DNA of 64,000 nt from Phaeodactylum tricornutum CCAP 1055/1 (Eukaryota; Bacillariophyta; Bacillariophyceae; Surirellales; Neidiaceae), in the NCBI RefSeq assembly GCF_000150955.2, contig NC_011699.1, positions 186,001 through 250,000 of the forward strand. Direction: 5' to 3'. A program made the translations under genes and the position numbers. The notes under the pieces were generated by a model, which searched no databases, was not told where the DNA came from, and was given only the letters and a program-made list of their open reading frames with translations. Below are positions 7,075 to 50,178 of the stretch, one piece after another; positions within the stretch are counted from its first letter, which is position 1, and every line of letters begins with the position of its first letter.

Positions 7075-8160
7075 CTAATGGGTCGGGCAGACAACGGTTT
7101 CTCCAATGAGCCATGGTGCAAAAGTCTCGGTTGATAGCGTCGACTTTTCCATGGCCTCCACAAGCTTGACCCGAGGCTCCAAGTAGTGTTCGCTCGTCAA
7201 TTGGAACGTACCCCAATGAATCGGCAGACCTTTCCGTGCCCGCACAGCTTCCATCATGAGCACTGCTTCTTCCGGATCGGTGTGCTGAGGCTTCATAAAG
7301 CTTCGAGGCTCGTAAGCTCCGATAGGAATCATGGCCACATCGAAGGGTCCATATCGCTCGCCAATCTCCCATAGACCTTCAAACCAACCCGTGTCGCCAG
7401 GGAAAAGCACCTTGGTGGTGTCTTCACAAACCAAACTATATCCGCACCACAAAGTCTGATCCCGATCCCAGCCATGGCGGGATGTCCAGTGCTGCATGGG
7501 TACGGGTGTCACCTCAAGCTTCTTACCGCTATTTGTAACGATTGTACAAGGCTCGTGCCAGTCCAGTTCGTAAATCTCGTGTCGATCGATCCCAGACACG
7601 TTGGACTCAAACCACTGCTTCAAACCCAAGGGTACGACGAAGGTCAGAGAAAACTCCGACAAGTTAGCCAAATCTTGCATTGTGTTGTAGTCCAAATGGT
7701 CATAGTGATTGTGGCTGAGTAAAACAGTGTCAAGTCGGACATGCTTGAGAAGCTCGCGGATATTGCACGGAGTAGGGCGGTAACGCTTCGGGCCAGCCCA
7801 TTGCACCGCACTGCAGCGCTCGCTAAAGACTGGACCCGTTAGAATATTGAGACCCTGTGCTTGGATGAGACATGAGGCATGTCCCAGCCATGTTACTTGC
7901 AGCGGCTCGGGAGATTGCAAAGCGGGCCACTCCATGTTCAGCACTGGAAAATCTTCATCGAGCTGTGACTGCAAGGGAAGCCTCGGAAGGGAAGAACCGT
8001 GGGTGGTCAAGAACTTGAGTACCGCCGTTACGCTGTGCTTCCTCCAAGTAGACCAAGAGTTACGCTCTTGAACACGGGCCGCGATGCGATCATGAAGCAA
8101 CATTGTGCTGGGTGACGTGTTGGCATCGACGGCACTAGCAGCGGTGCCGTTGGACGACAT
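7075..8160 (-). CDS. NAPE-PLD-like metallo-beta-lactamase-fold phospholipase
   Basis: The family hydrolyses N-acylphosphatidylethanolamine to N-acylethanolamine and phosphatidic acid. The metallo-beta-lactamase fold is plain: VTWLGHASCLIQ opens it, LLSHNHYDHLDYNTM is the HxHxDH zinc site, FPGDTGWF supplies the bridging Asp, and GLPIHWGTF gives the last His. IGAYEPRSFMKPQHTDPEEA is characteristic of the NAPE-PLD branch. The first in-frame ATG is at 8160 (361 aa). The frame stays open upstream through 8350 without an ATG, up to the 9-bp target duplication of a transposon. It continues in frame on the far side, at 11201 to about 11335. The original gene therefore probably began beyond 11201 and the element split its 5' coding part, unless transcription now starts near 8160. 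The 3' end is only 55 bp from the convergent desaturase. Confidence 0.88.
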   Translation of the reverse strand: MSSNGTAASAVDANTSPSTMLLHDRIAARVQERNSWSTWRKHSVTAVLKFLTTHGSSLPRLPLQSQLDEDFPVLNMEWPALQSPEPLQVTWLGHASCLIQAQGLNILTGPVFSERCSAVQWAGPKRYRPTPCNIRELLKHVRLDTVLLSHNHYDHLDYNTMQDLANLSEFSLTFVVPLGLKQWFESNVSGIDRHEIYELDWHEPCTIVTNSGKKLEVTPVPMQHWTSRHGWDRDQTLWCGYSLVCEDTTKVLFPGDTGWFEGLWEIGERYGPFDVAMIPIGAYEPRSFMKPQHTDPEEAVLMMEAVRARKGLPIHWGTFQLTSEHYLEPRVKLVEAMEKSTLSTETFAPWLIGETVVCPTH

Positions 8161-8341
8161 GCTTCGGGGGGAAGGAGAAAGGATGCGTGCAGATATCTTT
8201 TCCAGCCATTCATACTCCGAAGAAATCCAGGATAAGCTTCGCTCGTACAATTGATTATAAGGAACATCGGTATGATCGCGTTCTACTTGGCGAAGTGCAA
8301 CGAACTGTTTTGTACTCGTTCCTCTTTCGTAGACCGACGCG

Positions 8342-8350
8342 AAAAGCGAA
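8342..8350. repeat. Target site duplication, left copy (AAAAGCGAA)
   Basis: This 9-bp sequence is repeated exactly at 11201-11209, immediately outside the other end of the element. A 9-bp duplication is the usual product of Mutator-like transposases. Confidence 0.9.
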
Positions 8351-8437
8351 GAGGAAATTCGTTATTTGGGATGAGGGGGGGTGAAAATTATGCTATTTGG
8401 GAAGAAACAAACGAATTCTAAGTGTTTTTATTTTAAG
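8351..8437 (+). repeat. Left terminal inverted repeat of element 1
   Basis: It begins GAGGAAATTCGTTATTTGGG and aligns, with a gap of about 30 bp, to the reverse complement of 11110-11200. The shared blocks include GGGGTGAAA, GCTATTTGGGA and a T-rich stretch near AAGTGTTTTTATT. Confidence 0.8.
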
Positions 8438-8904
8438 TCTTACTTAATGAAAGAACAACAATCATATACTAAGTATAGCCATTAGGATTCAATCTAGCAG
8501 TTCCCCCATGAATTTTCAATTCTCAACCAAGCAGCCTACTATTTTTTTTCTAGAACGCACAACGCGAAGAACAACACTAGTCTGAGGTATTGGGTAGCGG
8601 CGACGAAAAGGAGAAAGTGCGGAAAGCAACACAAGGCATCGAGAGTAAGGGGGATCAGCATGAATTCATCCTGTTACAGAGTGGAATTGTTGGGCTATCC
8701 CGTCACAACGGCTTTCACTTGCAAGCCGCCGAAGAGATTTCGGACAATAAATTGTGGCTGCCACCAATAGGGTTAAAGCAATTTCAGTATCTCTTCGAAG
8801 GCCGGACGCGAAGTTTCCCTGCTTCTATCCAGGATTACCAAGTGCATCTCTGTTCATGTGTGGTGTACTGAAAGCCGGAGGAAGTGGAGGGGTTGGTGGT
8901 TAGT

Positions 8905-9655
8905 TGTTTTGGATACATTGCTGCAGACCTAGTATTGCTTGTTAGACATGCAAAGCTACCACGGCTATTTCAAGACGTGACAGAGAAGCATGAATCTGTT
9001 GGCTTGACAATACATCCGCTAAACAGTACCACAAAAGAAGTTGTCACTTCAGCCTTGCAAGAAGCATCACTTGCTGTCAGCTCCACCAAACAGATCTTGG
9101 AAGGTGGTGCCAAAACACTATTGTGTCAAGCTATTGTTTGGCGGCTTTATTCAAGACACTGTGCACATAAATGTTTGGGTCTGACAACACCACATATTAT
9201 CCTTCTACACAGCCCTTCATGGTGGCACCAAGACTTCCTTGGCAAGATAAACAGCTAAAGCTTTGTGGCATTCTTATTGCTCGCACCTGCCGGCATGTAC
9301 ATGTTGTTGTACATTGGCAAAGCTGAAGCAATTGTTTGACAAACATTTGCTTTGACCCAATTGGCAGCAGCCATGTGTGTAATTATTTGACAAAATTGAC
9401 ACACTTTTGAGAGTGGGCGGTGTTGCTGGGCATAGTATGTCACGTGTGGGTTGTCTACAGATACAATAGTTTTGATTACCTTCTTGAACAAAGTGGATGG
9501 TGTAGATGGTGAATCAAGAGATAGCATTCTTGTGCTGGGTGTAATAAATTGGCCTTGGACTTTGGATGTTGCATTGCTGCGGCCGGGGCGTTTTGATAGG
9601 ATCATTTTACGTCCCAACTCTTTTGTTTTTGAAGGCCAACAACGTGTTGAGAATG
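8905..9655 (+). pseudogene. Decayed AAA-ATPase fragment (CDC48/AFG2-like second ATPase domain)
   Basis: The pieces lie in the right order for the linker and second ATPase domain of a CDC48/AFG2 (SPATA5)-like protein, but in more than one frame and with stops. GYIAADLVLLVR (about 8911) matches the end of the first domain, where families read GYVGADL. A Walker A-like piece around 9195-9240 reads GGTKTSLAR. YIGKAEAIV then CVII (about 9313-9390) matches the sensor helix and the Walker B strand. FLNKVDGVDGESRD and ALLRPGRFDRII (9475-9605) match the second region of homology with the arginine finger. It cannot encode an ATPase. It is best read as a captured fragment of a host gene, and the parent should be elsewhere in the genome. 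Confidence 0.8.
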
Positions 9656-9671
9656 GATAGAGAAAGGGCTT

Positions 9672-10365
9672 GTGTTACAATATACAACAATATACAACAA
9701 TGTACACCGCATGGACAGAAGCGCTGTTAGGAACAGAGCCTGGTAAACAGAAGAGGGTGCTATTACAAACAACCGACAATACACCTAAGGGACGTAGGGA
9801 CTGTAAAACTCTACTTGTTGGCAATGCTCCCCTTGGGTTAGGCAGCGGATACAAGGACCTATGCGCAAAACTAGCAGTATGGATCAAAGAACTTATAAAA
9901 CAATGATTGAAGAATTAGTGCTATAAACTAGTTCTTGCAGCTCCTCCAATTTGCCAAGATACAACAAAACCTGAGGAACAAACTCAAATGTACACAAATA
10001 TCTTCCTTCCGAAATAGTATCCTTATACCATGACGCACGCTCACATATACTTATAGTGGAACCGGAAATACCTTTCATTACATGCATGCCGCGGGAAATG
10101 GAGCGCATCCATTTACATCCATTAGTCAGGCAATAAGTATTGTCAGTCCCACTCCGTTGCCACCATCAGAGCATGACATGTTCAGTTGCGTTCTCTCCAA
10201 CACACAATACATCATTGTATCTAGGGGCTTCATGCAATAAGACCAGGTTAACTTCCATACAACTCACTTCTCCCTTATGAACACTCCAACTGCCAATCAC
10301 TGTGTTGACGCCTAGGGGACGGACATCACTAGGAGACATGTTGCATGGTACTATACCAAGACAGC
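9672..10365. repeat. Internal module shared with 15737-16402, copy 1
   Basis: By eye this is roughly three-quarters identical to 15737-16402 over its whole length. Landmarks common to both are GGCAATGCTCCCCTTGGG, ATACTTATAGTGGAACCGGA and GACATGTTGCATGGTACTAT. In both copies the + strand carries an open stretch around GNAPLG-GS-YKDLC, and the - strand one around KGISGSTISICE. I cannot tell which strand, if either, was coding. No known domain was recognised. Confidence 0.75.
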
Positions 10366-10852
10366 TTGTACCTGCAAGGGAATTTCTGGAAATCTGACAT
10401 GTGCCAAGATTGTAAATGCCTGTCAGGAAGCCGCCTTGGATGTGTTTTGAAACAATAAGGAAAGCAGAAATGCCAACAGCTGTTTGGCCTTTAAAGTACT
10501 TGGATCTATGATCCGCTTTGCAAGCTGTCCAGCCCCTTTGTTGATTCCCACCATTATATTTGAATTTGATTGTTTTGAAGCAGATTGTAATCTGGTGTAA
10601 ACCCTCCAATTGGGACCTGCTCCATATTCTGCCAACAGCCAACAGATTTTGACGTGCCTGGCAATCACCACAGCTTGCAACAACAGGAAAGTATTCAAAG
10701 AGACACCAATGCCAAGAGCAACACAAGTCAAACAGACACTTGCAACCAAAATTGGTATAGTCCATGTGTGGTCTTTTGTCCTTTTGTCCTCCTCTTGCCA
10801 TGGGCTTGATTACCATGTCACTCTCTCCTAAAGAGAGGAGTATAAAAGGCAT
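10166..10852 (-). other. Open reading frame of unknown status inside element 1
   Basis: A 228-codon frame with an ATG at 10852. It starts MPFILLSLGESDMVIKP and has scattered Cys and aromatic residues but no domain I recognise. Another minus frame over 10423-10749 is also open and hydrophobic (about 25 residues from VASVCLTCVALGIG), which suggests a frame-shifted relic rather than an intact gene. Its 3' part overlaps the shared module. Confidence 0.25.
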
Positions 10853-11109
10853 TGAATGTTGGAAAGATCTCTTTAGTTGCTAGCTTCATGGTAGATGTGT
10901 TTCTTACTTTTGTTGGTTGGAATGTAACAATTTCCATTGGTGAATGCTGTCTGTGAGGTCCTCACCATTGGAGGCAACTGACTGTGAAGGGATGACCATA
11001 TGAAACCATATGAAAACAATGGTATTGTGATCTAGCATAGGATATGGGGTTGTTCTTAACTAGAACTTTTACTGACAAAGTATTTCCCGTGAGAATAAAA
11101 ATACTTAAA

Positions 11110-11200
11110 ATTTGTGTATTTTTTCCCAAATAGCGTAAATTTCACCCCTGCTCATTTCCATAATAGCGTAACATGCTTTTCCCAAAAAGCGAATTTCCTC
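11110..11200 (-). repeat. Right terminal inverted repeat of element 1
   Basis: This is the inverted counterpart of 8351-8437, ending GCGAATTTCCTC. It carries an extra internal block of about 30 bp that holds a second ACGCTATT motif. Confidence 0.8.
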
Positions 11201-11209
11201 AAAAGCGAA
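11201..11209. repeat. Target site duplication, right copy (AAAAGCGAA)
   Basis: An exact copy of 8342-8350, directly outside the right end of element 1. Confidence 0.9.
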
Positions 11210-12217
11210 ATTTCTTCAACTGGTAATTTGCGGCGAAGGAAGAGACGAAGAAGTGGCAGTGAGAATCCAGTGGTTTCAGTGAGCTGACGAAATGGTGTGG
11301 TCGTATTTGGTACCTGTCTTATATATTTCAGTGACCAAAAGTCCCCATTCAAATTCCCAGTCTACTATTAAACAGCACTTTCATGTTACTTATTAACAAA
11401 TTTAGGTGACAGAAGTGGAGAGGCTTTTCCTATGTATACGAATTCATGTTTCGTCATACTTGGACAACTCTTCCTTATGACCCAAGCGACGGATGAACCT
11501 AACCAAGAAACCCAAGTGTCGCGGTATATTAATCAAGGTCAATATGTGAAAGGAGCCTGAATCAAGAAGGGTTCACAAAAGCAGCATTTACATTTCAAAA
11601 AGGGATAGAATGAATCTCTCTACACAGAATTACGTGAGATTGGCAAGAACTCCAATTCTAACATTGAATCTCACCACATTCATTTTCATACGTCAAGCCC
11701 CACGGATTTAGTATGGTTTCCATCAAGCAGGAAACAGTGTAGATTATACGCGCAATGTAAACTATAATCTAGTGATTGAATGCACTTGAACGTTAGATTG
11801 TCGTAAACGCCCTAGTAAGTGGTGCAATACTACTGCTAAAGCAACATTTCACTGTTAATTTGCCACGTTTGGCATAGCAATAAGAGAGACGATAAAATCA
11901 GATCACATACCATTTTGCTTCCGAGACCAACATCTATCAGTGAACAATGCACAACGAAACAAGGGTATGCATCAGCCAGGTCACAGAAATGGCACAATAT
12001 GCCGCCAACAACAAAAATGCGCTGGACCAACTAAGAGTAGTAGTGCTTGGAATTCAAGGTGGGTACATTTATGTAAAGATCAATCCATGCTGTTAGTAGT
12101 AAATACCAAACCTTGATATTAACATTGAATTGCACAGAGTCATGACGCCAGAGCATGCCGTGTCCTCGGATGGATCCATTTTCGCGCACGTAAACTTTCA
12201 TTTCATTTACAAATGAG
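11210..12217. other. Probable severed 5' part of the NAPE-PLD-like gene, then intergenic
   Basis: On the minus strand the frame of the NAPE-PLD-like gene is open from the target duplication to about 11335 (reading ...RRKLPVEEISL into the duplication), with no ATG. A stop precedes it near 11364. Several AG acceptor-like sites lie between (for example AAGACAG at about 11316-11322), so an upstream exon is possible. The rest, about 11400-12217, shows no convincing coding frame. Confidence 0.45.
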
Positions 12218-13579
12218 TCAATATAAGCGGCGCTCTACAATAGCCTTTTCCTTCTCTTTCCAGGAAAGATTGAACGCATTGTCGTGGTCCTCATTGGAAA
12301 CAGTCTTCCTGCTAGCAGAAGGAGAGCGCTTCCAGAGATCACGTGCTGCGTCATCATGCTGTGAAAGTGATCCTTCAAGATTGACGTCATCTACCTTGTC
12401 TTCCACAGTTGCCTCCAAGAAAGTTGCTCCTCCCTGGACCTTTGCGTCTATCAACCGTACAGCTGGCTTGCAGACTTCTCTTCTCTGTAGAATAGCACGC
12501 TGTTTCTCGTTCCAAGACATGTTGAACGCCGACTCATAGTCTGCTTTAGCTGCCATTTTCTTGATCTTTATTGGAGTTCGAGAGGCAATTTCATGAGCAC
12601 TAAACGAGCCGTCGCTTACAGCGGTCATTTGATTACGTTCCCCGTTCTTCTTTATGTCACTGTCATCTTGATGAGAAAGACCCTCCAATGACGCTTCACC
12701 ATCGAACATTTTCGCAACACTGGAAGGCGAATCGTCGCATGGTGGCCTCGAAAACTCTTCTTCCTCCAAGTCCACTACATCAAGAGTGGTCTCACTGATG
12801 GTGTCCTGCTTGTCTTCTTGCTTCTCTGTAACCTCTAATTTGTCATTGTCGGTTACTTTGTGTAGTGTATCGGGCTCGTCGAAAGTTTCGTCGCCATCTA
12901 TCACCACTATTTCACCACATGTCGCTTCTGTCAACTTTACCTCGTCGTTGGATTGGGAACATATTAAGCCGGACTGAGAGGAATCAATTCGCTTGGGAAT
13001 CGATGTCTTCTCCACGGGCACAGTTTGTGGCAATTTGGCTGGTTTCTTTTTCATGTCCTGTACTTCTTTGGCCTCACCAAAATTATTTGTTGAGTTTTGT
13101 TGAAGCCAAGGCTGCGCAGCAAATTCATTCAGATCTTTATGGAAAGCCTTCATTCTGTCAAGAACTTCTTGCGGAACAGGACGCTCGTCCATGTCAGTTT
13201 TTGGTTTCCTTTTGATTTGAACAAATTCCTTCTTATTGCGCTCCTCCCATTCTTCCCAAGTAAGCTCTTCCTCCGCTTCCGACTCTGTGAAAGAATACAC
13301 CGATATTTCGTCTTCTGGCTCCAGGGCAGTTTTGGAATGAAAGCAGTCATTGACGGGCTCCGTTGCACTTTCTGTTTCGGCTACACATGCCGGGCTCTCG
13401 ATGGCTTTATCAGCTTGCGCCAAAGGCGGCGAGAAGGCATGACATGATACGCCTTCTGATGTTTCTACAGACCCTTTCGGTGATTTCTTTGACGGTGATG
13501 ATTCTCGAAGGCATGTGACAGCTTTTTGCTTTTCCGCCCAAGACAGGGCAAGGCCGCTTTCGCTGTAGTAATTCACCAT
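12218..13579 (-). CDS. Hypothetical acidic protein with three AFN-SW-EK motifs
   Basis: The open frame starts one codon earlier at a GTG; the ATG is at 13579 (453 aa). No known domain was recognised. The protein is polar and rich in Glu, Asp, Ser and Lys, with no signal peptide or membrane segment, so it is probably soluble and largely disordered. One short motif occurs three times: YSESGLALSWAEKQKAV (about 5-21), YESAFNMSWNEKQRAI (about 348-363) and HDNAFNLSWKEKEKAI (about 432-447). The consensus is (Y/H)-x-x-(A/G)-(F/L)-x-(L/M)-S-W-x-E-K-(Q/E)-(K/R)-A. A further Trp/Glu block, LTWEEWEERNKKEF, lies at about 106-119. The repeats sit at the two ends of the protein and could be short binding motifs. 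The gene lies alone between transposon-derived regions. Confidence 0.8.
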   Translation of the reverse strand: MVNYYSESGLALSWAEKQKAVTCLRESSPSKKSPKGSVETSEGVSCHAFSPPLAQADKAIESPACVAETESATEPVNDCFHSKTALEPEDEISVYSFTESEAEEELTWEEWEERNKKEFVQIKRKPKTDMDERPVPQEVLDRMKAFHKDLNEFAAQPWLQQNSTNNFGEAKEVQDMKKKPAKLPQTVPVEKTSIPKRIDSSQSGLICSQSNDEVKLTEATCGEIVVIDGDETFDEPDTLHKVTDNDKLEVTEKQEDKQDTISETTLDVVDLEEEEFSRPPCDDSPSSVAKMFDGEASLEGLSHQDDSDIKKNGERNQMTAVSDGSFSAHEIASRTPIKIKKMAAKADYESAFNMSWNEKQRAILQRREVCKPAVRLIDAKVQGGATFLEATVEDKVDDVNLEGSLSQHDDAARDLWKRSPSASRKTVSNEDHDNAFNLSWKEKEKAIVERRLY

Positions 13580-14319
13580 CACCCCCGTTCAAACAGTCCT
13601 TTTTGATTGTTTTGGTCTTTAACTTGTAGACGAAATTTTTGGGCCGACACGAAAGGATTCACAGTAAGGAAGACACAAAAAAGTTTCAGCCGACACCAGG
13701 CAAAATGACTATTCTGCAATGGTCATCCAAAAGGTCATCGACATTTGACTGTGAACAGAAAATGAAAAAAATACCGAATAATTATGGAAAGGGGACGTCG
13801 TTTCTTATGCTAAATAAACAGTATTGTGAATAATATCGAATTTGATAGAATTTAATGGATAAGGGTTACACTTAATGGAAAGGCTAAAACTTTTCTATAG
13901 ACAACGACGATAGGTCCTTGTGAATCTTCCCCAACGGATTTGTGTAATATTCCATTGTTTTCGACATTCGACCATTGTCAATTCATGTCAAAGAACTAGA
14001 AAACCCCTACGTCAAGCATTCATGTGGGGTTGTTATCCCTACTCCCTCACTCTGTCTATCGGACAAATCTATAGATTAATGTTATATGCCTTTGATCACC
14101 TACAAAAGTATGTAGGATCCTTTGAATCCTTAGGCACAATTTTAGCCTGTTATCGTAGCAGGTTCCTGGTATGAAACTGCGGCGATAACGGGCTCTAGAA
14201 TTAATTTTTGTAAAACGATCTTAGCGATTGCACTGTGGGGCCACGGCCGACACGTATCGGTGACGCCCACAGATTCACTCTACTTTTTGTATTCTTTTAC
14301 AGTTCATTCACTCGAAATT
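13580..14319. other. Intergenic region with one hairpin repeat
   Basis: This gap is upstream of the AFN-SW-EK gene. It holds the dispersed hairpin repeat at 13997-14133 (listed separately) and otherwise only short AT-rich frames with no support. Confidence 0.5.
13997..14133 (+). repeat. Dispersed hairpin repeat, copy 1
   Basis: It starts TAGAAAACCCCTACGTCAAG. The AACCCC there can pair with a GGGGTT about 20 bases on. Two similar sequences lie at 30082-30210 and 32892-32978. All three keep the ATCCCTA and TCTATC blocks. The nature of the family is unknown; it could be a small MITE-like or RNA-derived repeat. Confidence 0.7.
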
Positions 14320-20436: not shown

Positions 20437-20640
20437 GAGGAAAACCGCTATTTCGGCCTCTGCGACATGAAAAAATCGCTATTTCGGCAAAATCTGAGAA
20501 TTTCTAAGTACTTTAGATTGAGCGCGAAAGGGCGTTTAAGTAAAATAAGCAATTAGAAAATAATCCAATGCTTGGTGAATGCTCTGTATATGATATAGTG
20601 GAGGTATCGCGTTGGCATGGATGAGCTGCTTCCAACCCTT
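20437..20640 (+). repeat. Left terminal inverted repeat of element 2
   Basis: About 204 bp, roughly 90% identical by eye to the reverse complement of 22352-22554. It ends near GAGCTGCTTCCAACCC. The block GCTATTTCGGC occurs twice in the first 55 bp. Confidence 0.9.
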
Positions 20641-20945
20641 CAAGCTTCGATCAGTCTAGAGAGGACAGCAGTTGACTGTGAACACTTTACCCCACGCATA
20701 CAGAGAAGAATCTGTAGCCCAGGAATTTTGAACAACGAATACACGTTAAGTGTGGATACACCACCAGTCTTTTGAATGAACGCCACTCTGCAAATGTCTC
20801 TTCTTTCAGTAGCCGCAACTGACAGTGCACTCGGGTAGAGTACGTAGACTGACGGGACGGACGACCTTGCAGTCAATGAAGATGGAAAACGGTCGGGACG
20901 TGAATAGGGAAGAAAACTTACTTTTGGCTTTTGAAACAGATCTTG

Positions 20946-36006: not shown

Positions 36007-36622
36007 TGTCACGATATACACCAAGGTGACATGTCTCTAGGACAATCGTCATCTAAGGGTGATGTCGGAAGTGTGAATGAGGATGGAGACAATGGTGGAA
36101 TCGTGGTATTCATGTCGGCCCTATTATACGACCCGTTGTATTCACGTCATCATCGAGGTCGTCCTGTATTGGAAGTCGCGGGAGCTGGATACAAGAATGG
36201 AGATTAGGAGACAGTCCCACAAATCATAAGGCAAGGTACAGACAGGATTGGGTACTCGCTGAGTGATTCTGTGTGGGATTTATATTTAGAAGAGATATTA
36301 CTCTATGTGAGAGTAAGGTTATCTGGCACATGGTAAGAGGTCTTTCACTTGGGTGAACAGACTGGTTCTCATGGACTAGATGTAGAATAATCTTTCTCTC
36401 ATTGTTTTAGAAAGTCATTGATCCAAATATTGCATTAGCATAGGTCCTCGTATCCGCTGTCTAACCCGTGGGGAGCGTCGTAAGCGAGTTGAGTTTTACA
36501 GTCCCTAGGCTCGCTTAGGTGTATCGCAGGTCGTTCGTAATAACGCCCAACCTTCGTTTACCAGACTTTGTCGACACTGCGTTTCCTGTCTTTCGTACGT
36601 ACATTGGTTGTACTACGTAACA
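36007..36622 (+). repeat. LTR 1 (616 bp)
   Basis: Begins TGTCACGATATACACC and ends TACTACGTAACA. The first 200 bp are an open frame that forms the C-terminal end of the polyprotein in the other LTR copies. Confidence 0.95.
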
Positions 36623-37294
36623 GATTAACAGTCTTGACAGCACGTCAAACCACTGCTGCTCATCCGCACAGTCGTTACTGGTAAACATCCCTTAAGTCTA
36701 CTTAAGGCCGTTCTCAAATTTCCACGAGCTCCGTGAATTTTGAGAACTAAATCGCTTACATCCATTCGTGTTGTATAAGTGCCAGAGGTATCACTTAAGG
36801 TGATATTTATCGGCTTGTGTGACACATTGTTTGAAAGCCGCTTCCCTACTCCCTCACGCTAACTGGTACCGAGGACCCACTAGTACTGCTTCAGGGTCTT
36901 GTCGGTAAGTTACTCGTGGCCTCCCTACTTCCTCGGAGTCGCCGGTGCCGAACCCCCCTTGGAGTCTTCAGGGCTTGTCGGCAGGGCCGCTTCGTGACTA
37001 TGGGTTGCTCTAGTCAGGTGAGGTAGAAATACCAATAGGCCTGAAGACCTCAGCCCTGATTCCGGTTGGGACGGACTTACTGCCCGGCTTAAAGCAGTGC
37101 GGGGGGGCTAATCAAACCCTCGTCAGTCCCCGAGGACACTACCTACGGAGGTAGAAGTGAGTGTACCAGTGCTAGCTTCGTTCACTGGTGTAGGGTCATA
37201 CTAACGAAGTCCGCTATAGTATACAGCGAAGGACCCGAACACATAAGTAGTAATTTTCAAGAACCTCTATACCGTTTTGGCTTCTCAGGCCACT
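36623..37294 (+). other. Leader region of retroelement copy 1
   Basis: About 670 bp between LTR 1 and the first ATG of the polyprotein, long for a copia element. It holds GC-rich partial direct repeats (CCCTACTCCCTCACG against CCCTACTTCCTCGG, each followed by a CAGGG-CTTGTCGG block). No gene was seen. The same leader recurs at 43401-44072. Confidence 0.7.
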
Positions 37295-40200
37295 ATGGTT
37301 CCTGCCACCCGGCAAATGACAAGTGTAGCCGTCTATGCCCATTTTCTGGACAATGTACTCCTTCTTCCCCAAGGACATCCTATTCGTCTTGCCTTTGATC
37401 AACAAGGATATGAATCGGCTGACGATCTCTTGTGCATCTTTGAGAACGAACTCGACTCTCTTGAGTACACTCCTCCTGCCATTCCTGACGGTCCCGAAAA
37501 TCCGTCACGCATCCCTCTAATCATGGCACATCGACAGATCATACGTCACTTCCTACGTTGGCAAGCATCCTTAAAAGACCAAAAGGGGGCTCCTTTGAAG
37601 AACTCCGAGCTCGTTGCACTCAACAACGAGGACTTTGTCCTGTACCGTCGGTCAGCACTTGGCCAGGTTTCGACGGCCACTGCACCTGCCACTGTTCCCC
37701 CGACTGTTCAGAGTCCCACAGGAAAGACACGTTCGGCTGTCGAGGATTTCAAGCGTGGGATAAAACGTGATAAAACTCACTATCCTGTGCTCAAAGATGA
37801 CCGATACTGGGACAACTTCTATCGTTCGTTTGTTGTTACTGCCGTAACACATAACGTTGACAAGGTTCTAGACCCAAACTACATTCCTACCGATCCTTTG
37901 GAAAAGTCCCTCTTTGAAGAACAGAACAAGTTTGTATATTCTGCTCTAGAGCATACTCTTCAGACGGACATGGGAAAGAACGTTGTCTGTGAGCACAGTT
38001 TTGATTTCAATGCCCAAGAAGTTTTCCGTAAAATCGTGAAACATTATACGGAGTCAGCCAGCGCAAAGATCAGTTCGTCTACTACTCTGGGGTATCTCAC
38101 AACTGCAAAATACGGATCGTCATGGACAGGTACAGCAGAAGGATTTATTCTCCACTGGAAGAATCACTTGCGTATTTACAATGACACTGTACCTACTGGT
38201 GAGCAACTTCCTCAGCAATTGTGCCTTGGTCTTTTGGAGAATGCTGTTCATGATGTACCTGAACTCCGACAGGTTAAAATCACAGCAACACTCGACTTAG
38301 CCAAAGGTGGTAGTCCCATTAGCTACGATAGTTACCTCAGTCTCCTCCTTGCATCGGCATCGCTCTACGACAACGGTAATAATCTATCTAATTCTCGCAG
38401 TGGCAAGAACAAGCGCAATATCTATACTACTGAACTAGCCTATCATCCGACGGATTTTGAAAGCGAACCAGATGTAGACTATGATATAGATGTGTCACCG
38501 ACTGCCATATACGAAGCCAATGCCCACGTCCGTAACAACAGTACCCGTAACCGTCCCCTGGCAACTAATCGCGAACGACCTTACATTCCTCGTGAAATGT
38601 GGAATTTGCTCTCTGATGATTCCAAGGCCATCCTCCAAGGTTTGGCTGCACCCGGCAAGCAGGCACCATTAAATGGTAGCCCGCCTCATCAAACGCTGCA
38701 GGCCAATACACACGAGACCATTGGCACGGAACATACCGCAACGGACACCTTCCATGATTGCGCACCTGAAACTGAATTACTCGCACATCTTACTGAGCGT
38801 GTCAGTCGCATGAGCAGCGGTGATATTCGTAAGGTACTCGCCGCATCACGTGACGTATCAGAAAAGCCCAAATCACTGCAATCTAACGTACTGCAATACC
38901 AAGTCTCTCGTCATACTACCAACGAGACTTCTGCATCCCTTGTTGACCGTGGCGCTAACGGAGGGCTTGCGGGTGGTGATGTCATTGTCCTGCTCAAAAC
39001 AGGACGTTCGGCAAACATCACAGGTATCAACGATCATACCTTGCCAAACTTGGACATCGTCACTGCCGCTGGATGTGTTGAATCCCAAAATGGGCCCATC
39101 ATTCTCATTATGAACCAGTATGCTCATCTGGGGAAGGGTAAAACCATTCATTCAAGTGCGCAGTTGGAACACTATCGTAATCATGTCGAAGACCGTTCAC
39201 GCACGGTAGGGGGTAATCAGCGCATTGTCACTTTAGATGACTATATCATTCCCCTCCATATTCGACAGGGACTTCCATACATGGACATGCGACGCCCCAC
39301 TGATGCTGAACTAGCGTCCCTCCCGCATGTTGTCCTAACCTCAGACGTCGATTGGGACCCCTCTGTACTCGACAATGAAATTGACCTTGCGACTTCATGG
39401 TACGATGGCATCCATGACTTGCCCCAGCCCCCATACGTTGAACCACGTTTTGATCATACAGGCCAATACCTTCACCGTCACATTTCTCTATGCGACTACC
39501 GTGATGACGCCATTGCACGTATCATGCAGTGCCAACAGCATCACGTCACACGTAATGTGCACGATTATGAAGCCCTTCGTCCTTGCTTTGGCTGGGTCTC
39601 TGCCGACACCGTTCGGAAAACCATCATGGCCACCACGCAGCATGCCCGTGAAGTCTATCACGCACCGTTACGTAAACATTTTAAGTCTCGTTTCCCAGCC
39701 TTAAATGTACACCGTCGTAACGAACCGGTCGCTACTGATACCATATGGTCCGACACTCCCGCCGTAGACAATGGTGCAAAATTTGCACAACTCTTCGTTG
39801 GCAGACGGTCTCTTGTCACTGATGCCTACCCCATGAAAACTGATAAAGAGTTTGTCAACACCCTTGAAGATCACATCCGTTTCCGTGGTGCAATGGACAA
39901 ACTAATCAGTGATCGCGCTCAAGTTGAGATCAGTAAAAAGGTCACTGATATTACACGCGCATATAATATCGATCAGTGGCAGAGTGAGCCTAACCATCAG
40001 CACCAAAACTTCGCCGAACGTCGTATCGCCACCATCGAAGCCAATACGAACAACATTCTCAATCTTACTGGTGCTCCTGATAACACCTGGCTTCTTTGCG
40101 TGACATATGTTTGCTATGTCTTCAACCATTTGGCGCATGAATCTCTCGATCATCGCACCCCCCTCGAAGTGCTTACTGGTTCTACACCTGATATCAGTGT

Positions 40201-42985
40201 TCTCCTTCAGTTTCATTTTTGGGAACCGGTCTATTATAGAATTGAAGATGCGACATTCCCCTCTGGTGGTACCGAGCAACAAGGACATTTTGTCGGCATC
40301 GCAGACTCCGTCGGTGACGCTCTCACTTATAAGATCCTCAACGACCGCACCAACCGCATTCTATATCGATCTAGTGTTCGTTCTGCGGCCATTTCCGGGC
40401 AAACCAACCTACGCCTTGCGTCACAGGATGGGGAGAATGGTCCTAAGCCCATCAACTTTATCAAGTCGCGTAGAACCGAAAACCAAAATTCCTATGCCAT
40501 TAAGGAGTTGCCTGGTTTTACACCTGATGATCTTATCGGTCGCACGTTTCTCACCGACACTCGTGATGATGGAGAGCGTTTTCGGGCACGAATCACCCGT
40601 AAAATACTTGACCCAGACAAGCCTTCGGATGTGACTTTTCTTGTCGAAATTAATGATGGTGAACACGATGAGATTCTGACATACAACGAGATTCTAGATA
40701 AAATTGAGACAGATCTAGAAAAGGAACTTCACGATACGGACCGACAGTGGAGTTTCAAGGACATCGTCGCGCACGAAGGCCCACTTCTACCACGCGACAA
40801 GAACTACAAGGGATCTAGATTCAATGTTCTAGTCAACTGGGAGACTGGGGAGTCTACCTACGAACCACTCGACGTTATTGGTGCTGATGATCCAGTTACT
40901 TGTGCTATCTATGCTAAGAGCCAAGGACTACTAGATACACCTGGGTGGAAGCAATTCAAGCGCTTTGCAGCTAGGGACAAGCAGGTCCAGCGACTTGTAA
41001 GCCAAGCACTTCAGCACTCTAGCCAGACTACTTCAGCCCACAAGTTTGGATACCAACTCCCACGCAATCATAAGGATGCCATTGCTATCGACATGTCTAA
41101 CGGTAATAGTAAATGGCAAGACGCAGAAAGCACTGAGAGAGCCCAGCTTCACGAATATGATACTTTCGTTGACTACGGTAAGGCCAACATTGTCGGCAAC
41201 CACGTTACGAATGCACCTAAAGGGTACAAGAAGATCCGTGTTCACACTGTGTACGACGTTAAACACGATGGTAGACACAAGGCCAGGATGGTTGCTGGGG
41301 GACACCTAACTCCCATTCCAATCGAAAGTGTGTACTCTGGTGTGGTCTCGTTGCGCAGTCTACGCATTGTGGTTTTTCTTGCCGAGCTCAACGGACTCAA
41401 GCTATGGGGAGCTGATATAGGTAATGCATACCTAGAGGCCAATACCAAAGAAAAGGTATTTATTGTTGCTGGTCCAGAATTTGCAGAACTTGAAGGACAC
41501 GTGTTGGTTATCAACAAGGCCCTATATGGACTACGAAGTAGTGGGCTACGTTGGCACGAACGTTTTGCAGATACTCTTCGCGGTCTAGGCTTCACTGCCA
41601 GTAAGGCAGATTCTGACGTCTGGATGAGGGAAAAGTCCAACGTCTATGAGTATATTGCGGTCTACGTTGACGATATTGCTGTGGCAGCCCATGATCCTGG
41701 GGCAATCATACACTTGCTTAAGGAGAAATACAAGTACAAGCTAAAGGGTGTCGGCCCTTTGGAATATCATCTTGGTTGTACGTTTGAAAGAGACAAGGAT
41801 GGTACCCTTTCCTATCATCCAAAGAAATATATATCACGAATGATGGAACAGTATGAGAGAATGTTCCAAGAACAGCCTAAGCAGTACGTGTCACCCTTGG
41901 AGAAAGGTGATCACCCTGAGCTAGATTCAACGCCGGAACTTGGTGACGCTGGTATCAAGCAGTATCAATCCCTCATCGGTAGTTTACAATGGTTGATTAC
42001 ACTTGGGCGTTTTGACATAGCCACAGCGGTTATGAGTATGTCTAGATTCAGGGTAGCACCTCGGCAAGGACACCTTGATCGGCTCAAGCGAATGTACGGG
42101 TACGTAAAGAAGATGAAGAGTGGTGCAATCAGGGTTCGAACTGACGAGCCAGACTACTCAGGGCTCCCAGATAATCCCCGCGATTGGGCTACTTCTGTGT
42201 ATGGAAACGTTAAGGAACTGCTTCCTCATGACGCCCCAACGGCTCTGGGAAAACATGTCAGGCTAACCAGCTATGTCGACGCGAACCTATATCACGACAT
42301 GGCAACAGGACGTTCCGTCACAGGCGTGTTGCACCTTATCAATCAGACACCTTTTGAGTGGTACTCCAAACGGCAAGCTACAGTTGAAACTGCTACATAT
42401 GGATCTGAATTTGTCGCTGCACGGATCGCGGTCGAACAGATCTTGGACATTCGTACCACCCTACGTTTCCTTGGTGTTCCTATTATAGGCAAGTCAATTC
42501 TTTTCGGAGACAACCAATCGGTCATCATCAGCTCCACCGAACCACAATCACCGATCAACAAGCGACACAATGCCCTATCTTACCACAGGGTGCGCGAAGC
42601 TATTGCTGCTGGGATCGTAGACTTCCAGAAGGTCGTGAGTGCCGAGAATGTTGCAGATATACTCAGCAAACATTGGGGTTTTCAGCAGGCATGGCCGGTC
42701 CTCAAGCCCATGTTGTTTTGGCAAGGTGACCCATCAAAATGTGAGGTAAAGGCTTCCAACTCATCCAAGCAGGCCGATGGGGAGTGTCACGATATACACC
42801 AAGGTGACATGTCTCTAGGACAATCGTCATCTAAGGGTGATGTCGGAAGTGTGAATGAGGATGGAGACAATGGTGGAATCGTGGTATTCATGTCGGCCCT
42901 ATTATACGACCCGTTGTATTCACGTCATCATCGAGGTCGTCCTGTATTGGAAGTCGCGGGAGCTGGATACAAGAATGGAGATTAG
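37295..42985 (+). CDS. Gag-Pol polyprotein of copia element, copy 1
   Basis: A single long frame of about 1,896 residues from the first ATG; it looks whole. In order it has a gag-like region (about 1-550), a protease-like motif (LVDRGANGG), and an integrase with an HHCC-type start followed by a core containing the segment from WSDTPAVDNGAKF. Then come a reverse transcriptase (ALYGLRSSGLRWHERF, YVDDIAVAA) and an RNase H domain (SYVDANLYHD, GDNQSV). The last 67 residues are encoded inside LTR 2. This domain order defines Ty1/copia. Confidence 0.92.
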   Translation: MVPATRQMTSVAVYAHFLDNVLLLPQGHPIRLAFDQQGYESADDLLCIFENELDSLEYTPPAIPDGPENPSRIPLIMAHRQIIRHFLRWQASLKDQKGAPLKNSELVALNNEDFVLYRRSALGQVSTATAPATVPPTVQSPTGKTRSAVEDFKRGIKRDKTHYPVLKDDRYWDNFYRSFVVTAVTHNVDKVLDPNYIPTDPLEKSLFEEQNKFVYSALEHTLQTDMGKNVVCEHSFDFNAQEVFRKIVKHYTESASAKISSSTTLGYLTTAKYGSSWTGTAEGFILHWKNHLRIYNDTVPTGEQLPQQLCLGLLENAVHDVPELRQVKITATLDLAKGGSPISYDSYLSLLLASASLYDNGNNLSNSRSGKNKRNIYTTELAYHPTDFESEPDVDYDIDVSPTAIYEANAHVRNNSTRNRPLATNRERPYIPREMWNLLSDDSKAILQGLAAPGKQAPLNGSPPHQTLQANTHETIGTEHTATDTFHDCAPETELLAHLTERVSRMSSGDIRKVLAASRDVSEKPKSLQSNVLQYQVSRHTTNETSASLVDRGANGGLAGGDVIVLLKTGRSANITGINDHTLPNLDIVTAAGCVESQNGPIILIMNQYAHLGKGKTIHSSAQLEHYRNHVEDRSRTVGGNQRIVTLDDYIIPLHIRQGLPYMDMRRPTDAELASLPHVVLTSDVDWDPSVLDNEIDLATSWYDGIHDLPQPPYVEPRFDHTGQYLHRHISLCDYRDDAIARIMQCQQHHVTRNVHDYEALRPCFGWVSADTVRKTIMATTQHAREVYHAPLRKHFKSRFPALNVHRRNEPVATDTIWSDTPAVDNGAKFAQLFVGRRSLVTDAYPMKTDKEFVNTLEDHIRFRGAMDKLISDRAQVEISKKVTDITRAYNIDQWQSEPNHQHQNFAERRIATIEANTNNILNLTGAPDNTWLLCVTYVCYVFNHLAHESLDHRTPLEVLTGSTPDISVLLQFHFWEPVYYRIEDATFPSGGTEQQGHFVGIADSVGDALTYKILNDRTNRILYRSSVRSAAISGQTNLRLASQDGENGPKPINFIKSRRTENQNSYAIKELPGFTPDDLIGRTFLTDTRDDGERFRARITRKILDPDKPSDVTFLVEINDGEHDEILTYNEILDKIETDLEKELHDTDRQWSFKDIVAHEGPLLPRDKNYKGSRFNVLVNWETGESTYEPLDVIGADDPVTCAIYAKSQGLLDTPGWKQFKRFAARDKQVQRLVSQALQHSSQTTSAHKFGYQLPRNHKDAIAIDMSNGNSKWQDAESTERAQLHEYDTFVDYGKANIVGNHVTNAPKGYKKIRVHTVYDVKHDGRHKARMVAGGHLTPIPIESVYSGVVSLRSLRIVVFLAELNGLKLWGADIGNAYLEANTKEKVFIVAGPEFAELEGHVLVINKALYGLRSSGLRWHERFADTLRGLGFTASKADSDVWMREKSNVYEYIAVYVDDIAVAAHDPGAIIHLLKEKYKYKLKGVGPLEYHLGCTFERDKDGTLSYHPKKYISRMMEQYERMFQEQPKQYVSPLEKGDHPELDSTPELGDAGIKQYQSLIGSLQWLITLGRFDIATAVMSMSRFRVAPRQGHLDRLKRMYGYVKKMKSGAIRVRTDEPDYSGLPDNPRDWATSVYGNVKELLPHDAPTALGKHVRLTSYVDANLYHDMATGRSVTGVLHLINQTPFEWYSKRQATVETATYGSEFVAARIAVEQILDIRTTLRFLGVPIIGKSILFGDNQSVIISSTEPQSPINKRHNALSYHRVREAIAAGIVDFQKVVSAENVADILSKHWGFQQAWPVLKPMLFWQGDPSKCEVKASNSSKQADGECHDIHQGDMSLGQSSSKGDVGSVNEDGDNGGIVVFMSALLYDPLYSRHHRGRPVLEVAGAGYKNGD

Positions 42986-43400
42986 GAGACAGTCCCACAA
43001 ATCATAAGGCAAGGTACAGACAGGATTGGGTACTCGCTGAGTGATTCTGTGTGGGATTTATATTTAGAAGAGATATTACTCTATGTGAGAGTAAGGTTAT
43101 CTGGCACATGGTAAGAGGTCTTTCACTTGGGTGAACAGACTGGTTCTCATGGACTAGATGTAGAATAATCTTTCTCTCATTGTTTTAGAAAGTCATTGAT
43201 CCAAATATTGCATTAGCATAGGTCCTCGTATCCGCTGTCTAACCCGTGGGGAGCGTCGTAAGCGAGTTGAGTTTTACAGTCCCTAGGCTCGCTTAGGTGT
43301 ATCGCAGGTCGTTCGTAATAACGCCCAACCTTCGTTTACCAGACTTTGTCGACACTGCGTTTCCTGTCTTTCGTACGTACATTGGTTGTACTACGTAACA
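42785..43400 (+). repeat. LTR 2, shared by both copies
   Basis: 616 bp, serving as the 3' LTR of copy 1 and the 5' LTR of copy 2. Practically identical to LTR 1. Confidence 0.95.
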
Positions 43401-44072
43401 GATTAACAGTCTTGACAGCACGTCAAACCACTGCTGCTCATCCGCACAGTCGTTACTGGTAAACATCCCTTAAGTCTACTTAAGGCCGTTCTCAAATTTC
43501 CACGAGCTCCGTGAATTTTGAGAACTAAATCGCTTACATCCATTCGTGTTGTATAAGTGCCAGAGGTATCACTTAAGGTGATATTTATCGGCTTGTGTGA
43601 CACATTGTTTGAAAGCCGCTTCCCTACTCCCTCACGCTAACTGGTACCGAGGACCCACTAGTACTGCTTCAGGGTCTTGTCGGTAAGTTACTCGTGGCCT
43701 CCCTACTTCCTCGGAGTCGCCGGTGCCGAACCCCCCTTGGAGTCTTCAGGGCTTGTCGGCAGGGCCGCTTCGTGACTATGGGTTGCTCTAGTCAGGTGAG
43801 GTAGAAATACCAATAGGCCTGAAGACCTCAGCCCTGATTCCGGTTGGGACGGACTTACTGCCCGGCTTAAAGCAGTGCGGGGGGGCTAATCAAACCCTCG
43901 TCAGTCCCCGAGGACACTACCTACGGAGGTAGAAGTGAGTGTACCAGTGCTAGCTTCGTTCACTGGTGTAGGGTCATACTAACGAAGTCCGCTATAGTAT
44001 ACAGCGAAGGACCCGAACACATAAGTAGTAATTTTCAAGAACCTCTATACCGTTTTGGCTTCTCAGGCCACT
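43401..44072 (+). other. Leader region of retroelement copy 2
   Basis: Same leader as 36623-37294, with no visible difference of note. Confidence 0.7.
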
Positions 44073-47000
44073 ATGGTTCCTGCCACCCGGCAAATGACAA
44101 GTGTAGCCGTCTATGCCCATTTTCTGGACAATGTACTCCTTCTTCCCCAAGGACATCCTATTCGTCTTGCCTTTGATCAACAAGGATATGAATCGGCTGA
44201 CAATCTCTTGTGCATCTTTGAGAACGAACTCGACTCTCTTGAGTACACTCCTCCTGCCATTCCTGATGGTCCCGAAAATCCGTCACGCATCCCTCTAATC
44301 ATGGCACATCGACAGATCATACGTCACTTCCTACGTTGGCAAGCATCCTTAAAAGACCAAAAGGGGGCTCCTTTGAAGAACTCCGAGCTCGTTGCACTCA
44401 ACAACGAGGACTTTGTCCTGTACCGTCGGTCAGCACTTGGCCAGGTTTCGACGGCCACTGCACCTGCCACTGTTCCCCCGACTGTTCAGAGTCCCACAGG
44501 AAAGACACGTTCGGCTGTCGAGGATTTCAAGCGTGGGATAAAACGTGATAAAACTCACTATCCTGTGCTCAAAGATGACCGATACTGGGACAACTTCTAT
44601 CGTTCGTTTGTTGTTACTGCCGTAACACATAACGTTGACAAGGTTCTAGACCCAAACTACATTCCTACCGATCCTTTGGAAAAGTCCCTCTTTGAAGAAC
44701 AGAACAAGTTTGTATATTCTGCTCTAGAGCATACTCTTCAGACGGACATGGGAAAGAACATTGTCCGTGAGCACAGTTTTGATTTCAATGCCCAAGAAGT
44801 TTTCCGTAAAATTGTGAAACATTATACGGAGTCAGCCAGCGCAAAGATCAGTTCGTCTACTACTCTGGGGTATCTCACAACTGCAAAATACGGATCGTCA
44901 TGGACAGGTACAGCAGAAGGATTTATTCTCCACTGGAAGAATCACTTGCGTATTTACAATGACACTGTACCTACTGGTGAGCAACTTCCTCAGCAATTGT
45001 GCCTTAGTCTTTTGGAGAATGCTGTTCATGATGTACCTGAACTCCGACAGGTTAAAATCACAGCAACACTCGACTTAGCCAAAGGTGGTAGTCCCATTAG
45101 CTACAATAGTTACCTCAGTCTCCTCCTTGCATCGGCATCGCTCTACGACAACGGTAATAATCTATCTAATTCTCGCAGTGGCAAGAACAAGCGCAATATC
45201 TATACTACTGAACTAGCCTATCATCCGACGGATTTTGAAAGCGAACCAGATGTAGACTATGATATAGATGTGTCACCGACTGCCATATACGAAGCCAATG
45301 CCCACGTCCGTAACAACAGTACCCGTAACCGTCCCCTGGCAACTAATCGCGAACGACCTTACATTCCTCGTGAAATGTGGAATTTGCTCTCTGATGATTC
45401 CAAGGCCATCCTCCAAGGTTTGGCTGCACCCGGCAAGCAGGCACCATTAAATGGTAGCCCGCCTCATCAAACGCTGCAGGCCAATACACACGAGACCATT
45501 GGCACGGAACATACCGCAACGGACACCTTCCATGATTGCGCACCTGAAACTGAATTACTCGCACATCTTACTGAGCGTGTCAGTCGCATGAGCAGCGGTG
45601 ATATTCGTAAGGTACTCGCCGCATCACGTGACGTATCAGAAAAGCCCAAATCACTGCAATCTAACGTACTGCAATACCAAGTCTCTCGTCATACTACCAA
45701 CGAGACTTCTGCATCCCTTGTTGACCGTGGCGCTAACGGAGGGCTTGCGGGTGGTGATGTCATTGTCCTGCTCAAAACAGGACGTTCGGCAAACATCACA
45801 GGTATCAACGATCATACCTTGCCAAACTTGGACATCGTCACTGCCGCTGGATGTGTTGAATCCCAAAATGGGCCCATCATTCTCATTATGAACCAGTATG
45901 CTCATCTGGGGAAGGGTAAAACCATTCATTCAAGTGCGCAGTTGGAACACTATCGTAATCATGTCGAAGACCGTTCACGCACGGTAGGGGGTAATCAGCG
46001 CATTGTCACTTTAGATGACTATATCATTCCCCTCCATATTCGACAGGGACTTCCATACATGGACATGCGACGCCCCACTGATGCTGAACTAGCGTCCCTC
46101 CCGCATGTTGTCCTAACCTCAGACGTCGATTGGGACCCCTCTGTACTCGACAATGAAATTGACCTTGCGACTTCATGGTACGATGGCATCCATGACTTGC
46201 CCCAGCCCCCATACGTTGAACCACGTTTTGATCATACAGGCCAATACCTTCACCGTCACATTTCTCTATGCGACTACCGTGATGACGCCATTGCACGTAT
46301 CATGCAGTGCCAACAGCATCACGTCACACGTAATGTGCACGATTATGAAGCCCTTCGTCCTTGCTTTGGCTGGGTCTCTGCCGACACCGTTCGGAAAACC
46401 ATCATGGCCACCACGCAGCATGCCCGTGAAGTCTATCACGCACCGTTACGTAAACATTTTAAGTCTCGTTTCCCAGCCTTAAATGTACACCGTCGTAACG
46501 AACCGGTCGCTACTGATACCATATGGTCCGACACTCCCGCCGTAGACAATGGTGCAAAATTTGCACAACTCTTCGTTGGCAGACGGTCTCTTGTCACTGA
46601 TGCCTACCCCATGAAAACTGATAAAGAGTTTGTCAACACCCTTGAAGATCACATCCGTTTCCGTGGTGCAATGGACAAACTAATCAGTGATCGCGCTCAA
46701 GTTGAGATCAGTAAAAAGGTCACTGATATTACACGCGCATATAATATCGATCAGTGGCAGAGTGAGCCTAACCATCAGCACCAAAACTTCGCCGAACGTC
46801 GTATCGCCACCATCGAAGCCAATACGAACAACATTCTCAATCTTACTGGTGCTCCTGATAACACCTGGCTTCTTTGCGTGACATATGTTTGCTATGTCTT
46901 CAACCATTTGGCGCATGAATCTCTCGATCATCGCACCCCCCTCGAAGTGCTTACTGGTTCTACACCTGATATCAGTGTTCTCCTTCAGTTTCATTTTTGG

Positions 47001-49763: not shown

Positions 49764-50178
49764 GAGACAGTCCCACGAATCATAAGGCAAGGTACAGACA
49801 GGATTGGGTACTCGCTGAGTGATTCTGTGTGGGATTTATATTTAGAAGAGATATTACTCTATGTGAGAGTAAGGTTATCTGGCACATGGTAAGAGGTCTT
49901 TCACTTGGGTGAACAGACTGGTTCTCATGGACTAGATGTAGAATAATCTTTCTCTCATTGTTTTAGAAAGTCATTGATCCAAATATTGCATTAGCATAGG
50001 TCCTCGTATCCGCTGTCTAACCCGTGGGGAGCGTCGTAAGCGAGTTGAGTTTTACAGTCCCTAGGCTCGCTTAGGTGTATCGCAGGTCGTTCGTAATAAC
50101 GCCCAACCTTCGTTTACCAGACTTTGTCGACACTGCGTTTCCTGTCTTTCGTACGTACATTGGTTGTACTACGTAACA
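49563..50178 (+). repeat. LTR 3 (616 bp)
   Basis: Right-hand LTR, differing from LTR 1 and LTR 2 at about two positions. It is followed directly by the interior of a different copia element. Confidence 0.95.

Follow-up and report, generated by a model that had tools for sequence, protein, structure and literature searches.

A probable Pack-MULE carrying a captured AFG2 fragment, and its family of gene-loaded siblings, in the diatom Phaeodactylum tricornutum

An element of Phaeodactylum tricornutum that spans positions 8351-11200 of the window (the whole 64-kb stretch of DNA analysed here, C31:186001-250000) is very probably a non-autonomous Mutator-like DNA transposon, or Pack-MULE, which captured a fragment of a host AFG2-type gene and is now a fossil. 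A Pack-MULE-like reading had been put forward in a preliminary description of the window, and it is supported by searches of the genome (27,450,724 bases in 88 contigs), which place the MULE domain PF10551 inside a sibling with the same ends and pieces of other host genes inside siblings.

The ends of the element, GAGGAAATTCG...CGAATTTCCTC, coincide to the base with positions 8351 and 11200, and comparison of the flanks gives a perfect 9-bp target-site duplication, AAAAGCGAA, at 8342-8350 and 11201-11209, precisely as first described. The inverted ends had also been recognized, but they are longer than was claimed. Self-comparison reveals terminal inverted repeats of about 82 bp on the left (8351-8432) and about 107 bp on the right (11094-11200), the right one having about 25 bp extra; by segment they are 81-90% alike, with 21 bp at 90% and 62 bp at 84%. 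In the 64-kb window, the duplicated sequence AAAAGCGAA has three plus-strand occurrences and no minus-strand one: it stands in both flanks and at 11185, inside the right end of the element. Owing to this resemblance to a repeat within the right end, the duplication alone is weaker evidence than a random 9-mer would be. Beside the element, a minus-strand frame at window 7075-8361, which by eye we take to resemble a NAPE-PLD-type hydrolase, has its first ATG about 190 bp from the element (also by eye), with the element upstream.

The preliminary description had made its reading depend on two findings, other copies with the same ends and a close host parent for the AAA fragment. Similar ends were found at dozens of places. 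A 141-base query from the right end gave at least 40 genome matches (40 of 51 candidates were scored), and the end pattern GAGGAAATTCGNTWTTTGGGA, with up to three mismatches allowed, matched 98 times (57 forward, 41 reverse), against two forward and no reverse matches for its reversed control. Matches with 0, 1, 2 and 3 mismatches numbered 3, 37, 14 and 44, respectively, and the three-mismatch group takes in visibly different sub-types. Among the listed ends, 22 facing pairs were picked by eye, with single ends excluded; this count keeps five pairs without a good duplication and includes both of the near-identical scaffolds C45 and C53. The 9-bp duplication is perfect in 12 of the 22 pairs and agrees at eight of nine bases in a further five, while the flanks of the remaining five agree at 5, 5, 6, 6 and 7 of 9 bases; the latter include the C8 sister with the longest AFG2 piece, whose right end is provisional. 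Swapping flanks between pairs yielded 2 of 462 perfect combinations, as expected from the near-identity of C45 and C53, and another 2 of 462 at eight of nine. Moreover, in the perfect pairs flank agreement drops when it is read at 8 or 10 bp rather than 9.

Two further repeats of the window were observed. At 20437-22554 lies a second element of related type, with 202-bp inverted ends at 93% that carry GAGGAAAACCGCTATTTCGGC, and with flanks TTTTGAAAT and TTTCGAAAT that agree at eight of nine bases; no Pfam family was found in the five frames of it that were scanned. Additionally, window 36195-43401 and 42973-50178 both match the same C63 sequences at 76-82% and would seem to represent two copies of a single repeat spaced by about 6.8 kb.

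The assignment to Mutator goes beyond end structure alone, given that a same-ended sibling, C31:170535-172338 (L025, L038), encodes a PF10551 MULE domain at C31:171487-171705 (31.9 bits, cut-off 27.6). This sibling lies 13.7 kb before the window, has ends of the focal type and is flanked by the duplication TTCCTACAA; its MULE frame is broken. Across the genome, PF10551 scored above the cut-off at 17 of the 19 places listed, and of these the C31 place alone has a pattern-matched family end within 6 kb. The focal element had been described as lacking a recognizable transposase. This holds for a functional enzyme, and a Pfam scan of eight of its frames detected no transposase family (two sub-cut-off matches, one antisense frame), but the minus strand at 10824-10931 still encodes a remnant of a MULE transposase N-terminus, 36 residues long and with 61% identity (E 7.2e-7). 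The C63 copy of the element retains a similar piece.

It could be argued that the ends belong to a non-Mutator superfamily that also makes 9-bp duplications, and that the MULE domain of the sibling was itself captured. The broken frame of that sibling, together with the finding of no intact transposase between the exact ends of the family, would fit such a reading, and yet we regard it as extremely unlikely. In the focal and other elements the distance between the transposase N-terminus and a family end is about 170-280 bp, which is what deletion derivatives would show, and the subterminal regions are common to transposase-bearing copies: the focal right subterminal region (10844-11168) is 82% identical over about 330 bp to the two such copies. 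A left end and subterminal region (8351-8738) is likewise common to sibling elements, at 80% to C45 and C53. Furthermore, a 9-bp duplication combined with long inverted ends fits Mutator.

An autonomous partner had been suggested as a target for searching, and the outcome is divided: the sibling with a MULE domain between the same ends was found, whereas an intact transposase between exact ends was not. Of 64 transposase matches in the genome, 18 have a family end no more than 2 kb away; they fall at ten places (C31:170743, C20:422275, C12:419787, C12:414214, C9:555721-557682, C19:523639, C28:227774, C16:13126, the focal element and C63). Among the closest transposase relatives, the one at C12:124971-125831 is 95% identical and has one stop. 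The others, three 635-aa MULE frames (C9:100316-101500, C18:263673-264857 and C29:97247-98431), have equal scores at 66-72% identity and may have been copied recently from a related autonomous MULE; none of them lies near a match to the GAGGAAATTCGNTWTTTGGGA pattern. Separately, C9:552305-557871 has facing family ends 5.6 kb apart; between them lie an AFG2 piece and several pieces of broken transposase, and this may be a longer member of the family.

The load of the focal element is, as first described, a decayed AAA fragment of the CDC48/AFG2-like kind. It matches positions 87-130 of the PF00004 profile with 21.1 bits (E 4.4e-4), narrowly short of the cut-off of 21.2, and aligns at the DNA level to a host AFG2-type gene. 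This gene, C33:15000-17459 (L079), is the one clear parent; it looks intact, with an open frame of 839 aa in which two stretches have AAA domains, and among proteins of solved structure its best matches are AFG2 proteins (E 2.4e-95). It contains the best match to the AAA piece outside elements (C33:16983-17165, 69% amino-acid identity over 62 residues). A piece inside a sister element, C8:350378-350557, matches at 67% with one stop, and the other listed AAA genes reach at most 53% (E 6e-6 or weaker). The captured stretch corresponds to parent bases 1223 to 2475 and is carried on the plus strand in two parts. The first, at 8752-9672, aligns to parent bases 1223-2200 at 77% as a whole, and the remaining 3' part, at 10371-10612, aligns to 2228-2475 at 79%, ending about 12 bp beyond the parental stop codon (2461-2463). 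By block, DNA identity is 80.8% over 816 bp, the best, 81.9% over 221 bp and 88.9% over 54 bp.

A census of the genome with the parent gene gave 13 matches, which group into the parent and ten other places. Nine of these ten are no further than 1.5 kb from a family end, or seven of eight independent places given that C31/C63 and C45/C53 are pairs, although the zones of 2 kb around such ends cover at most 1.4% of the genome. The exception, C17:517357-517587, stands 6 kb away from the nearest of the listed ends. The left break, at parent bases 1214-1223, is common to C8, C31, C63 and C3, with the C41 alignment starting at 1237. Two 1-bp frameshifting insertions absent from the parent are common to C8, C31 and C63. 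We can therefore give next to no credence to the idea that an ordinary pseudogene or segmental duplicate came to lie beside unrelated inverted repeats by chance. The partial and decayed state of the fragment would suit that idea, but the ends of the element directly adjoin the 9-bp duplication, the same fragment recurs with its breakpoints and frameshifts in other elements with similar ends, and the non-parental places concentrate near family ends.

The same breaks bear on how often AFG2 DNA was taken up. The simplest reading of these alignments is one capture followed by loss of parts. Repeated capture by different elements appears unlikely, even though one comparison favors it: by codon position, the parent and C8 differ at 13-18%, the parent and the focal element at 15-16%, and C8 and the focal element at 15-18%, so that the three are about equidistant. 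Against this stand the common left break and the two common insertions.

Capture is more plausibly placed at the DNA than at the RNA level. The parent frame has no intron within the captured stretch, so retained introns are uninformative, and this leaves room for a reverse-transcribed AFG2 mRNA that landed in the element. Nevertheless, such an origin seems very unlikely, as the copy ends about 12 bp beyond the stop codon, where no poly(A) tract is visible by eye, and the other break falls inside coding sequence. The sole apparent intron loss that was looked at, in a TPR fragment carried by the C20 element, was ruled out: the 144-bp gap corresponds to open TPR-like coding sequence in the C10 parent (176 bases read) and is an in-frame coding deletion. 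The PI-phospholipase C (PI-PLC) load of other siblings shows a similar gap, of 288 bp, against its parent.

The focal AFG2 fragment has decayed like a pseudogene, with nine frame-shifting gaps and four stops in 257 codons. Selection on it was considered and is unsupported, since its divergence from the parent is about equal over the three codon positions (16.3, 16.3 and 15.4% at positions 1, 2 and 3). The fragment is also split at window 9673-10363 by a solo LTR of about 691 bp (TG...CA), which belongs to a multi-copy LTR retrotransposon and has a 5-bp duplication of its own, GCTTG, at 9668-9672 and 10364-10368. No counterpart of this LTR was found at the matching place in the parent or in C8. 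Thus, the interior does hold the AAA fragment that had been described, but 9673-10363 is a later insertion and not part of the original element. The nested LTR accounts for most of 57 genome matches, several of which are paired about 7 kb apart.

A copy of 4731 bp on C63 is 94.7-97.4% identical in pieces to the focal element and has three additional stretches. Its right flank is that of the window itself, at 98.1% over window 11830-14037, with collinear homology stopping near 14037, and its left flank is a multi-copy repeat that abuts the duplication. We considered this copy as an independent one and ruled that out, because a right flank identical in origin to that of the window marks the same insertion rather than an independent jump. 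On this flank comparison, the C63 copy represents that insertion either on a second haplotype or in a duplicated region.

Taken together, these observations are consistent with the following history, the order of which is our inference. An ancestral copy would have retained the MULE ends on both sides, together with the beginning of the transposase gene, and it would have gained, at the DNA level, about 1.25 kb from the 3' half of the host AFG2-type gene, as the parent alignment suggests. The loaded copy may then have moved and given rise to several derivatives, to which the common breaks point. The focal copy presumably inserted at AAAAGCGAA, generating the 9-bp duplication now seen there; it would have moved by cut-and-paste, with transposase supplied in trans from a MULE with compatible ends. 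Decay of the AFG2 fragment, which shows no sign of selection, would have followed, and an LTR retrotransposon would later have entered the fragment and left the solo LTR.

Different members of the family sampled different host genes, namely AFG2, 2-oxoglutarate dehydrogenase, PI-PLC and a TPR gene. One sibling type, of 2028-2113 bp, is present in seven copies and carries a dehydrogenase E1 fragment (PF00676, E 8.9e-37; 2-oxoglutarate dehydrogenase); over the query, identity to the C10 copy is 92-99% for the other six, and the 9-bp duplication is perfect in five of the seven and agrees at eight of nine bases in two. From sequence similarity, the parent of this load is likely C14:766170-766571, in an open frame of 1057 aa (93%; 91% at the DNA level). 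Selection on the seven dehydrogenase copies was also considered and is unsupported: variable columns number 14, 12 and 19 by codon position, with a small third-position excess. The adjoining part of the dehydrogenase-loaded element matches C24:249653-249871 at 82%. This lies near the PI-PLC parent frame (1414 aa; C24:248490-248828, 83%), and the element may therefore be a chimera of two sources. At C3:921459-925469, a PI-PLC-X fragment (E 7.3e-6) is joined to an AFG2 piece, and the same combination occurs on C41 at 85%. Additionally, C20:422067-424683 holds a transposase N-terminus, a TPR piece with 95-96% identity to parts of C10:760441-760886, and a piece that matches C15:227404-227607 at 89%.

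The capture of genes by DNA transposons is viewed chiefly as a feature of plants. Plant Pack-MULEs form chimeras of several genes and can yield several copies per capture, features that the diatom family resembles. A compact genome of 27 Mb in which loaded elements can be counted, their parents have open frames and copies differ in age makes the acquisition and persistence of fragments open to study. For diatom genome evolution, exon shuffling by DNA transposons would stand beside the well-known copia expansion. The family also carries a warning for annotation, as enzyme pieces inside such elements can be mistaken for genes. We think it fairly probable that Phaeodactylum tricornutum harbors a gene-shuffling system in which one MULE family loaded parts of at least four host genes, built chimeras (PI-PLC with AFG2, and dehydrogenase with a stretch from the PI-PLC neighborhood) and multiplied one load to seven copies; such a system would be a first well-documented case of Pack-MULEs in stramenopiles.

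In the main text of the open-access papers searched, no report of gene capture by diatom MULEs or of a diatom Pack-MULE was found. Two Mutator-like families have been reported in P. tricornutum (PMC2806351), and "MULE-Diatoms" form group 37 of a classification in which their inverted ends are given as 123-124 bp and their target sites as "No TSD and not indicated" (PMC6446971). These MULEs are of the same superfamily and host group as the present family and likewise have inverted ends; they differ in being described as transposase lineages, with gene capture going unmentioned in the relevant passages of the two papers, and the comparison is one of descriptions only. Outside plants, transduplication is announced in the title of a paper on Pyrenophora tritici-repentis (PMC3538342), which on that basis is a parallel in a fungal rather than a diatom host. 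The rice Pack-MULEs, for which a number of more than 3000 is quoted in PMC8903248, are, as far as passages of that paper and of PMC6446971 describe them, like the focal family in their MULE ends, target duplications, lost transposase and host gene fragments. The diatom family differs from them in its host, in its far fewer copies and in introns that are uninformative. The Pack-MULE is a known kind of element, and the diatom is a new lineage for it.
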